From NCBI RefSeq assembly GCF_000330705.1, contig NZ_ANAM01000006.1:248001-312000 (forward strand): 64,000 nucleotides of DNA, written 5' to 3'. Within the stretch, counting starts at the first letter, position 1. The number at the start of each line of letters is the position of its first letter. The notes beneath the pieces were generated by a model. It had not been told where the DNA came from and made no database searches. It worked only from the letters and a program-made list of their open reading frames with translations. Both the position numbers and the translations under genes were made by a program. Source of the stretch: Salinicoccus carnicancri Crm. GTDB taxonomy: Bacteria > Bacillota > Bacilli > Staphylococcales > Salinicoccaceae. Positions 30,776 through 61,576 of the stretch are shown piece by piece.

Positions 30776-31765
30776 ATGCTCAAAAAGGCATTATTATTCG
30801 TCCTCTTATATGTGATTGCTGTGCTGCTGGCCCCTGTAATCCAATCTTATGATTTCGAGGAGGGGATGAATGTCCAGTATGCCAAAAGCTGGCTTGAAAA
30901 CCATGTCTATCCTGAATATGACAGGAGTGTCATCCACCAGGTGAACAGTACGCAGACACAGGATGTAGAGCTGGATATGGGAGAGGAATATCAAAGCGGG
31001 GACAATGAAGTACTGGACTCTGAATACAGCGGCAATTTTATCGTCGAGGATGAACCTGGTCTGTTCAGGCTGGTTCTCGTACAGGATGGAAAGGTTGCCG
31101 GCGGATATACGAACAGTGATGATGTATCCATCAGCAACATTAATATCGAAGACCTCGACCGTGAAAAGGTCAGGGAAACATACGGAGAGCCTGAGGAATA
31201 TATACAGAAGGGCTGGAAACGCCTCAGGGTGAATGAAGAAGGCTTCGAGGTGTTCGACCTGAAGGGAAACTATGTCTATTTCTTCTATGACCTGCATCAG
31301 GAGGATAAAGTGAACGGCATGCTTCTGCTTGATAAAGACCAGGTCGCTTCGATTGAAACACTCTATAACAATCCGCCGGCAGAGGATAATTCACGTCTGA
31401 ACCATCTTGTTGTGAACGCCTCGCGGATCGAATACGGGCTGGATCCACTCAGGGTCGATGAGAGAGCATCCAGTGCCGCTCTCGGTCACAGTACAGATAT
31501 GGCACAAAATGACTATTTCGAACACGAATCACCGCAGGGGGTCACTTTGAAAGACCGCATCGAGGAAAGTGGTGCAGACTACCAGAAGGCAGGGGAGAAC
31601 ATAGCCATGGGCCACACATCTGTAATCTTTGCCCATCACAGTCTGCTCAATTCGCCGGATCACCGGGTGAATGTCCTGAGTCCTGATTTTACACACCTTG
31701 GTACTGGCACTGCATACGGAAGAGAGGATGTTCCATATTATACTGAAAACTATTTGCAAAAATAG
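30776..31765 (+). CDS. CAP-domain (SCP/PR1) extracytoplasmic protein
   Basis: This 329-residue protein has an N-terminal hydrophobic signal or anchor (about 3-22), a CAP-associated N-terminal domain (about 90-185) and a C-terminal CAP domain (about 210-329) with LGHSTDMAQNDYFEHESPQG, AGENIAMGH and SPDHRVNVLSP. Such secreted proteins are common in bacilli and staphylococci; their molecular function is mostly unknown. TTGGAGGTG precedes the ATG. Confidence 0.85.
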   Translation: MLKKALLFVLLYVIAVLLAPVIQSYDFEEGMNVQYAKSWLENHVYPEYDRSVIHQVNSTQTQDVELDMGEEYQSGDNEVLDSEYSGNFIVEDEPGLFRLVLVQDGKVAGGYTNSDDVSISNINIEDLDREKVRETYGEPEEYIQKGWKRLRVNEEGFEVFDLKGNYVYFFYDLHQEDKVNGMLLLDKDQVASIETLYNNPPAEDNSRLNHLVVNASRIEYGLDPLRVDERASSAALGHSTDMAQNDYFEHESPQGVTLKDRIEESGADYQKAGENIAMGHTSVIFAHHSLLNSPDHRVNVLSPDFTHLGTGTAYGREDVPYYTENYLQK

Positions 31766-31805: not shown

Positions 31806-31830
31806 GTTTATAAATGGTTTTAAGGGGAAT
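31806..31830 (+). promoter_or_regulatory. Possible SigB-dependent promoter
   Basis: GTTTAT and GGGAAT are spaced by 13 bases, one mismatch from the staphylococcal/Bacillus SigB consensus (GTTTAA-N12-15-GGGWAT). It lies about 75 bases before a 25-codon ORF. Nothing else in this 140-base stretch looks like a SigA promoter. Confidence 0.45.
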
Positions 31831-31905
31831 TTATATATTGGACCAGAAGTTTCCCGCTATCTGAAATCCATCCAAATTGAACGATTGAATGAGGGGATGC
31901 AATTG

Positions 31906-31983
31906 ATGGGTAAGACGCAGGATAAGGATATAAGCGAAGATAAAAACATACTTGAACAGGTAAGGATAATACTCGGAAAATAA
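31906..31983 (+). CDS. 25-residue peptide with C-terminal NILEQVRIILGK
   Basis: This short ORF has a GAGGGG ribosome site 9 bases before its ATG. The N-terminal half is charged (K, D, E) and the C-terminal half is amphipathic. The last residues (NILEQVRIILG) match those of a 27-residue prophage ORF at 60891-60974 (NILEQVKEILG) at 9 of 11 positions, which argues that it is a translated gene. A strong hairpin follows. No known family comes to mind. Upstream in-frame starts (ATG 31897, TTG 31903) are alternatives. Confidence 0.55.
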   Translation: MGKTQDKDISEDKNILEQVRIILGK

Positions 31984-32032: not shown

Positions 32033-32066
32033 GAAGGGCGTATGCTTAAGCATACGCCCTTTAATT
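32033..32066. terminator. Bidirectional terminator between the 25-residue peptide gene and lexA
   Basis: The perfect 26-base palindrome made of AGGGCGTATGCTT and AAGCATACGCCCT is followed on the plus strand by TTAATT. It lies between convergent genes and can serve both. Confidence 0.8.
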
Positions 32067-32075
32067 ATGTGCCCT

Positions 32076-32690
32076 TCAGAATTCCCGGAACAGACCGACC
32101 ACTTTGCCCAGTACTGTGACTGCATCCAGATATATTGGATCCATGGTCTGGTTTTCCGGCTGTAATCTGTAATAGCCACTCTCCTTATAGAACCTTTTCA
32201 CCGTCGCCTCATCCTCTTCTGTCATGGCGACGATGATGTCGCCGTTATGGGCGATGTTCTGTTTTCTGACGATCACACGGTCCCCATCATGGATACCCGC
32301 TTCGATCATGCTGTCCCCGGCGACATTCAGCAGGAAAATCTCGCTGTTGTGGTTTGCAGTGAAATGCTCTGGAAGCGGGAAATACTCATCTACATTTTCG
32401 ACTGCTGTAATCGGCAGGCCTGCTGTAACCTTACCGAGTACAGGCACCTGGATGACGGAAGCATACTGGCTGTTCTCCTCCATGACGATCTCGATTGCAC
32501 GGGGTTTGGTAGGATCGCGTTTGATATATCCCTTATCCTGCAGTTTGGCAAGGTGTCCGTGTACAGTAGAACTTGACTGCAGGCCGACAGCATTGCCGAT
32601 TTCCCGGACACTCGGCGGATACCCTTTATCCTGAACGGTCCTCTTGATGTACTGATAGATTTGCTTTTGTCTGTCCGTTAGCTCCTTCAT
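32076..32690 (-). CDS. lexA: LexA repressor
   Basis: This 204-residue SOS repressor has an N-terminal winged helix ([20 protein letters not shown]), a self-cleavage site Ala-Gly in VTAGLPIT, catalytic Ser in GDSMIEAG and catalytic Lys in ATVKRFY. The start follows GGAGG. Its promoter (TTGTAA-17-TAGAAT on the minus strand, 32746-32718) overlaps LexA box 1, so it is autoregulated. sosA diverges from it. Confidence 0.98.
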
Positions 32691-60291: not shown

Positions 60292-60476
60292 ACAAACACG
60301 TTGAAGAATTCAAAACAGATATGAGGATTAAATTAAACGATGCAAAGGAAACTCTAAAAGACAGAAGTAAACAAAGAGAGCATTACGAAAGGCTTGAAAA
60401 AGAAAGCCAAGAAGAAATTAAAATTATTGAAGAGTCATTACTCGTTATAGATACAGGGGAGGATTATCTGGCATGA
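60288..60476 (+). CDS. Coiled-coil phage protein
   Basis: A 62-residue protein, nearly all helix (DMRIKLNDAKETLKDRSKQR; LEKESQEEIKIIEESLLV). It is coupled by ATGA to both neighbours. Unknown function. Confidence 0.65.
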   Translation: MNKHVEEFKTDMRIKLNDAKETLKDRSKQREHYERLEKESQEEIKIIEESLLVIDTGEDYLA

Positions 60477-60937
60477 ACCAACTCAAAATAAAGAAACTCC
60501 ATCCGGATGCGATGATTCCGACGAGGAGTCATCCACACGATGCGGGATTGGATTTATACGCACTGGAGGATACTAGAATACACAATGGGACTGTAGTATT
60601 AGTAAAAACAGGTATAGCAATAGATATACCGGAAGGTTATGAAGCTCAAGTCAGACCACGTTCTGGAATGACGCTTAAAACACCACTGCAAGTGCAACTT
60701 GGGACAATCGATTGTGGCTATGCAGGTGATGTTGGGGTGATAGTTAGAAGTTTCAAGAAACCGTCCGGCGGTGACCTAGTTTATAGACCGACAGATTATT
60801 TTGAAGACATTGAAGCAGGTGACAAGATAGCCCAACTCGTCATCAGTCCAATCGTCACGCCATCAGTTGAAATAGTGGAGGAATTTGAAAGTGAATCAGC
60901 AAGAGGCACAAACGGATTCGGATCAACAGGGAAGTAA
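60473..60937 (+). CDS. dut: dUTP diphosphatase
   Basis: This trimeric dUTPase hydrolyses dUTP to dUMP. The 154-residue protein has all five motifs: DAGLDLYA, RPRSGM, GTIDCGYAGDVGV, GDKIAQLVI and ARGTNGFGSTG. In staphylococcal phages and SaPIs such dUTPases also derepress pathogenicity islands; whether this one does is unknown. Its end overlaps a 27-residue ORF in another frame. Confidence 0.96.
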   Translation: MNQLKIKKLHPDAMIPTRSHPHDAGLDLYALEDTRIHNGTVVLVKTGIAIDIPEGYEAQVRPRSGMTLKTPLQVQLGTIDCGYAGDVGVIVRSFKKPSGGDLVYRPTDYFEDIEAGDKIAQLVISPIVTPSVEIVEEFESESARGTNGFGSTGK

Positions 60938-60974
60938 TATCCTGGAACAGGTCAAAGAAATATTAGGCAGGTGA
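60891..60974 (+). CDS. 27-residue peptide with C-terminal NILEQVKEILGR
   Basis: This tiny ORF starts at GTG after TGGAGG with 9-base spacing, overlapping the last 47 bases of dut in a different frame. The N-terminal half is Gln/Asp/Ser-rich; the C-terminal NILEQVKEILG is nearly the same as the end of the chromosomal 25-residue ORF at 31906. Shared sequence between two unlinked loci supports translation of both. Family unknown. Confidence 0.55.
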   Translation: MNQQEAQTDSDQQGSNILEQVKEILGR

Positions 60975-60977
60975 TAT

Positions 60978-61070
60978 ATGAACATCGGCGCTGCACTTGC
61001 ACTGATCACTGTACTGTTTTGCATCTGGATCATCATACTCGTCATTATCGGAAACAATATGAATAAGTAA
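60978..61070 (+). CDS. 30-residue membrane peptide
   Basis: An ORF with one hydrophobic segment (about residues 5-24) and a short polar tail starts 3 bases after the stop of the NILEQV peptide gene; AGGTG is its ribosome site. A hairpin terminator follows. It could be a holin-like or toxin-like peptide, but nothing specific supports either. Confidence 0.5.
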   Translation: MNIGAALALITVLFCIWIIILVIIGNNMNK

Positions 61071-61117: not shown

Positions 61118-61576
61118 ATGCTGCAGTTAGATATTCAAGATTTGGACTTTTTTGCCACTCGGGATGCGGTCTACGATTTACTCAAAGAATATAGAAAACT
61201 ACTCATGATCGTTCCTGTGAGGGACATGCCATCAGTGACTCAATCATTCAGCTTCATTCCACCGTGCACCAATAAAAGCATGAACAGCATTGAGCAGTCT
61301 GCAGAGCGCAATATACGCAGGCAGCAGTTATTACAGAAACGGAATGAATTGATGGATAAACTGCATCATGCGATAGAGGAGCTCAAACCTTATGAAAAGC
61401 ATATCATCGTGTATTCGCAGATGCAGGAAGACAAGATGATGGATGTAGACATCTATACCGAATTGGGCATCAGTCGTACCAAATACTACGAATTAAAGAA
61501 TGATGCAATCGTCCGTCTGGCATTCTATCTGGGCATTGAGGTCTATGAAAGTGGAAAGGAGGATGACTATGCATGA
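61118..61576 (+). CDS. ArpU-family late transcription regulator
   Basis: This 152-residue protein has a sigma-like C-terminal helix-turn-helix (YTELGISRTKYYELKNDAIV) and the ArpU/RinA-type layout found just before late genes in Firmicutes phages. It probably activates the packaging and structural operon. GAAGGAGG precedes the ATG. It overlaps the recombinase gene by 4 bases. Confidence 0.85.
   Translation: MLQLDIQDLDFFATRDAVYDLLKEYRKLLMIVPVRDMPSVTQSFSFIPPCTNKSMNSIEQSAERNIRRQQLLQKRNELMDKLHHAIEELKPYEKHIIVYSQMQEDKMMDVDIYTELGISRTKYYELKNDAIVRLAFYLGIEVYESGKEDDYA

Follow-up and report, generated by a model that had tools for sequence, protein, structure and literature searches.

A Salinicoccus orthologue of the sigma-B-dependent gene sbrB and its probable phage-borne homologues within nucleotide pyrophosphohydrolase genes

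Introduction

The closest described relative of the chromosomal gene studied here is sbrB of Staphylococcus aureus, known since 2011 (Nielsen 2011, cited in PMC8745188), a sigma-B-dependent gene conserved among staphylococci whose product, SbpB, has no known function (PMC8745188). The locus is convergent with lexA, the published promoter reads GTTT-N16-GGGTAA, and the transcript of 145 nt carries an ORF that opens with two consecutive AUGs and has four lysines among its last six residues; the 3' end and the terminator were reported to be non-conserved (PMC8745188). Translation of SbrB in S. aureus has been validated by GFP fusion and Ribo-seq (SaSP_039; PMC12607899), although, according to a review, only some S. 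aureus strains translate it (PMC3861533). S. aureus SbrA (26 aa, sigma-B-dependent; PMC3861533) is likewise a small sigma-B-controlled peptide, the likeness being one of description only. Among S. aureus phages, phi11 sORF15 and phi12 sORF16 (PMC13009471) are likewise unannotated micro-ORFs; they lie upstream of lysis modules, are leader-ORF candidates and fall outside the sbrB-like family.

Results

The window, a stretch of 64,000 nucleotides from Salinicoccus carnicancri Crm, holds two tiny ORFs, one chromosomal (host) and one in a prophage, which the first-pass annotation had linked by their similar C-terminal ends. Both are present and as alike as it said, with nine of 11 core residues identical between NILEQVRIILG (host) and NILEQVKEILG (prophage). 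Among 145 small ORFs of the window preceded by a Shine-Dalgarno sequence (SD), the best pair of 12-residue tails shared 9 of 12 residues; in 60 shuffled windows the best tail pair shared 5-7 residues and no pair shared 8 or more. The resemblance is well above chance. Only 23 of 36 nucleotides of the motif DNA are identical between the two, so this is no recent copy and the likeness lies at the protein level. The host locus comprises the following features.

30776..31765, + strand: CAP-domain protein gene (PF00188 and PF14504), the conserved upstream neighbour by synteny
31806..31830, + strand: predicted promoter of sigma-B type ahead of the host micropeptide gene (GTTT 31806-31809, 15 nt, GGGAAT 31825-31830)
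31891..31896, + strand: Shine-Dalgarno GAGGGG, 6 nt before TTG 31903, the spacing identical in 12 of 12 Salinicoccus species
31903..31983, + strand: host micropeptide CDS, assigned as the Salinicoccus sbrB orthologue, TTG start (12 of 12 genus genomes, synteny, pN/pS 0.30)
31945..31980, + strand: conserved C-terminal motif NILEQVRIILGK, predicted amphipathic helix (alignments A1-A3; AlphaFold2 helix)
32034..32061, no strand assigned: perfect inverted repeat AAGGGCGTATGC-TTAA-GCATACGCCCTT, then TTTAATT, read from the sequence between the micropeptide gene and the convergent lexA
32076..32690, - strand: lexA, the convergent neighbour, adjoining the micropeptide at the loci examined

The host ORF had been placed at ATG 31906, from which the peptide reads MGKTQDKDISEDKNILEQVRIILGK (stop at 31981-31983). 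An ORF does stand there, but its start is more likely TTG 31903, because all 12 Salinicoccus species share the arrangement GAGGGG-6 nt-TTG and ATG 31906 is missing from most of them. The peptide is encoded in 12 of 12 Salinicoccus genomes, adjoined by lexA in every one and by the CAP-domain gene in 11 (the CAP match is missing for L009). Profile searches widened the range of the peptide from the genus to the order. Outside Salinicoccus, the gene order peptide-lexA-DUF896-tkt was found at 18 loci of Staphylococcus-like and related genomes, with the CAP gene ahead in most, and the orthologues, of 22-35 aa, lie between the CAP-domain gene and the convergent lexA. Further copies that the profile had missed were recovered at lexA loci, for example MTTKKENKTEDILEKVKDVLEKKNEK and MTSKQNHSKQNTVNKKKTTDDILIQVKKILNKN. 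No peptide was seen at the lexA loci of seven genomes from five other genera of the window's own family, and a class-wide profile search of sampled Bacilli gave matches within the same order and none outside it. Curated collections (Pfam, PHROGs, NCBIfam, Rfam, PDB) returned chance-level matches only. The codon substitution check that the first-pass annotation had proposed gave a pN/pS of 0.30 in the Salinicoccus frame, whereas the shifted frames gave 1.5 and 1.4; by this measure the host reading frame is under purifying selection.

Upstream of the gene, the pattern GTTT-N13-18-GGG(T/A)A was found at 12 of 12 Salinicoccus copies (reversed-pattern control, 0/12), in the form GTTT-N15/16-GGG(A)A(A/T) or a close variant in all 12 genomes, each of which also carries sigB. 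The same sigma-B-like pattern precedes 17 of the 18 other chromosomal copies, and the reversed pattern precedes none; a genome-wide search with the promoter pattern was too permissive to be informative. The host ORF is convergent with lexA on its sosA-distal side and combines a short reading frame and an SD with the core DIL-(E/D)-x-V-K-x-(I/V)-L. From its location, promoter and anatomy we identify it as orthologous to sbrB, the S. aureus gene for SbpB, so the host member of the family is already known. The two have in common the lexA-convergent locus, the promoter GTTT-N15/16-GGG(T/A)A(A/T), a short ORF with a strong SD, a terminator between the gene and lexA, and conservation among relatives. 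The Salinicoccus form differs in its TTG start, its longer 5' leader and the absence of a lysine tail; it has 25-26 codons and a net charge of 0, whereas the published "small basic protein" has 38 aa. One genome, G110 (L220), fits the published sbrB closely, with GTTT-N16-GGGTAA, AUGAUG and four lysines in the last six residues (...NKKERKK); its stop ends at +103 and is followed by a hairpin ending near nt 145, although its peptide reads 27 aa with a charge of +3, against 38 aa for published SbpB. In the S. aureus-like genome G142 (C1, about 1317100; L282), sbrB has an early stop (ATGATGATTTAA), the promoter and the downstream codons being intact. The gene is thus not indispensable, and the early stop agrees with the report of the peptide in some S. 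aureus strains only (PMC3861533).

As a separate observation, a second chromosomal copy with the core KDIV(Q/R)TVKEIL(K/E)RR follows a tRNA cluster in four of the 12 Salinicoccus genomes (G000:C8:394489-394563, L042 and L291; also L288, L289 and L290). It has the SD AAGGAGAGG, no ATG, GTG or TTG, and a conserved ACG at start-codon spacing, which suggests a non-standard ACG start.

The prophage copy of the window lies in the following setting.

60473..60937, + strand: prophage trimeric dUTPase gene dut (PF00692, E 1.7e-25)
60877..60881, + strand: Shine-Dalgarno GGAGG, 9 nt before GTG 60891, an arrangement that recurs in phages
60891..60974, + strand: phage-borne micropeptide CDS, GTG start, matched by profiles A1, A2 and A3

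Read from GTG 60891, the prophage peptide is VNQQEAQTDSDQQGSNILEQVKEILGR (stop at 60972-60974), with the motif NILEQVKEILGR at 60936-60971. The last 47 nt of dut overlap it in a different frame, and its N-terminal half consists of the last dut codons read in that other frame. This accounts for the differing N-terminal halves of the two peptides, which had been pointed out on first reading, as had the good ribosome sites (GAGGGG before the host ORF, GGAGG before the prophage ORF) and the hairpins, one at 32034-32061 after the host ORF and another after a small phage ORF at 60978-61070. That small ORF, hydrophobic and of 30 codons (MNIGAALALITVLFCIWIIILVIIGNNMNK), directly follows the phage micropeptide; after it come the hairpin and a gene of late-activator type (phrog_248, 61118-61576).

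Short queries cannot reach significance, and accordingly tblastn of a 29-mer against phages and an alignment-based locus search gave few matches; the productive searches used DNA patterns, dut-end DNA queries and profile HMMs. At least 120 stretches in IMG/VR match a DNA pattern for the motif and its stop. A DNA query made of the dut 3' end and the peptide of phage QT1 found 195 phage records, of which 190 belong to Staphylococcus phages and 136 match over most of the query; phi11, 3A, phiSLT, phiETA2 and phiPVL types are among them. The peptide is absent from the annotation of the phage records examined that carry it, phi11 included. We tabulated 118 distinct copies, about 109 from phages or prophages; an SD and a start codon were found in 108 of the 118, the start standing most often 16 codons before the motif. 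Nearly all phage copies start within the 3' end of a nucleotide pyrophosphohydrolase gene, and in all but a few of the roughly 109 the overlapped or upstream gene encodes, by domain, a trimeric dUTPase (PF00692), a dimeric dUTPase (PF08761) or a MazG-like enzyme (MazG/PRA-PH). Further loci in genomes of the order show either the lexA or the phage-enzyme context, one being unclassified. Little beyond the dUTPase C-terminus is left in the Salinicoccus prophages L036 and L038 and in the phage contigs L047 and L055, yet all four keep the peptide, an SD and start being recognised in L036, L038 and L055 but not in L047. Plasmids were searched as well and gave no match to the peptide. A sigma-B-like promoter was looked for at 102 phage copies and found at none. 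As the phage ORF has neither this promoter nor the lexA locus that distinguish S. aureus sbrB and sits on dUTPase or MazG genes, we call it a phage-borne homologue and not sbrB. No description of the phage copies was found in the open-access literature, a scope that excludes subscription papers and supplements, and a phage branch overlapping three kinds of nucleotide pyrophosphohydrolase gene appears to be new.

Several phage copies depart from the common layout. In L018, L060, L083, L099, L115, L120 and L159 the motif is directly preceded by an in-frame insert that encodes KGGESHP or something very similar, and the insert DNA (GGGTGGCGAAAGTCACCC in L018) can form a hairpin; other inserts, such as KRVEFEAVKN, occur in L064, L069, L118, L177 and L178. 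Some phages or prophages (L087, L116, L057, L077, L213) carry two motif copies, the measured distances between them running from a few hundred to 1,500 bases, and in L213 one motif forms an in-frame fusion with a DUF1381-like protein.

The relationship between the host and phage peptides was assessed with profiles from either side. Profile A3, built from chromosomal peptides only, gives E 5.0e-5 for the prophage copy of the window; for other phage copies the per-genome values are 1e-9 to 1e-7. Conversely, when the profile was built from 94 phage peptides, with those from Salinicoccus left out, chromosomal copies matched at 3e-5 to 0.02 (values scaled to a single genome), and the Salinicoccus copies at E 0.2-0.4 only. 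The core motif is shared beyond chance, and common descent of the host and phage peptides is likely on these profile matches; convergence on one binding site is a possible alternative, the shared region being about 12 residues long. The phage set has a pN/pS of 0.18, a value biased low because the set was picked by amino-acid pattern. These comparisons strongly support a family of micropeptides common to host chromosomes and phages, with homologues in all 12 Salinicoccus genomes, in other genera and in phages, and with reading frames that are not broken. The first-pass annotation was right that the family is real, and "unrecognised" did not hold for its chromosomal member, sbrB/SbpB. Its further suggestion, a phage mimic that may bind a common target, would fit these data.

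In the AlphaFold2 model the N-terminal half is disordered and the motif is helical (mean pLDDT 90 over residues 21-30 of a 32-residue query). The conserved I, L, V, I/V and L fall on one face of this helix and the remaining positions are charged. The modelled 12-residue amphipathic helix, shared by the two branches, suggests docking on a common partner. With its alternating charges and few hydrophobic residues it does not fit a membrane peptide of the PSM or delta-haemolysin kind, a reading that we rejected.

Discussion

On balance we favour one family in two settings, sigma-B-controlled sbrB in hosts and phage copies within dUTPase or MazG genes, with a docking helix that the phages imitate. 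In this proposal the product would work as a protein. Its polar N-terminal half would be a tether under little sequence constraint, and its C-terminal helix (D/N-I-L-x-K/Q/R-V-K/R-x-I/V-L) would dock its hydrophobic face on a putative partner present throughout the order. Under stress, sigma-B would supply the host peptide. In lytic growth the phage would supply its own copy from an operon between the replication genes and the rinA-type late activator, made independently of sigma-B by coupled initiation on the dUTPase or MazG message. Most likely, the phage peptide would imitate the host peptide at the same putative partner. More tentatively, and with somewhat less than even probability, the phages may carry working SbrB mimics that are produced in lytic growth without stress and act on a conserved host target.

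The same helix could also serve the opposite end, phage copies being antagonists that occupy the SbrB docking site and disarm the host stress response. The phage copies do present the helix in another context and behind a different N-terminal half, they have lost sigma-B control, and many different phages carry one. The charged residues of the helix are, however, equally conserved in phages and hosts, with no hint of a dominant-negative form, and we regard antagonism as unlikely. The position of the phage ORF raises two further readings. It might act in cis only, coupling the dUTPase or MazG gene to the next gene or tuning the mRNA, with the peptide itself irrelevant: it overlaps the upstream gene, and its stop often abuts the next start. 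Yet the following gene varies widely and is sometimes replaced by a terminator, the amino-acid motif is kept with synonymous variation, and the ORF persists where the dUTPase is gone, all of which make a cis-only role decidedly improbable. Similarly, the link of nearly every phage copy with such a gene might mean that the peptide is a partner or regulator of the overlapped nucleotide pyrophosphohydrolase, modulating for example dUTPase or its island-repressor binding. The enzymes that precede it nevertheless fall into three classes with at least two unrelated folds, the host copy adjoins lexA, and some copies lack the enzyme (L036, L038) or follow a different gene (L159), so that this reading, too, has a low probability.

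A role of sbrB mainly as RNA, by antisense read-through into lexA with the ORF secondary, has the read-through seen in one S. aureus strain and the suggested dual-function RNA (PMC8745188, PMC3861533) in its favour, as well as the early stop in G142, but is very improbable in view of the clear protein-level selection, the phage copies that keep the peptide far from lexA, and the non-conserved 3' end and terminator (PMC8745188). More generally, coding selection and persistence without dUTPase disfavour any purely cis or RNA role. A programmed frameshift fusing the helix to dUTPase was rejected as the main reading because of the conserved independent SD and start and the survival without dut, and a structured-RNA reading because Rfam gave sub-threshold matches only.

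We return to the imitation of a host peptide by phages as the preferred reading. The retention of one helix in unrelated genes of so many phages, phi11 included, suggests that the peptide has a target of importance to phages, and comparison of the host and phage peptides offers a direct route to that target. Standard annotation of well-studied phages missed a gene. If phages do carry working SbrB mimics, these would represent a new class of host-takeover micropeptide.
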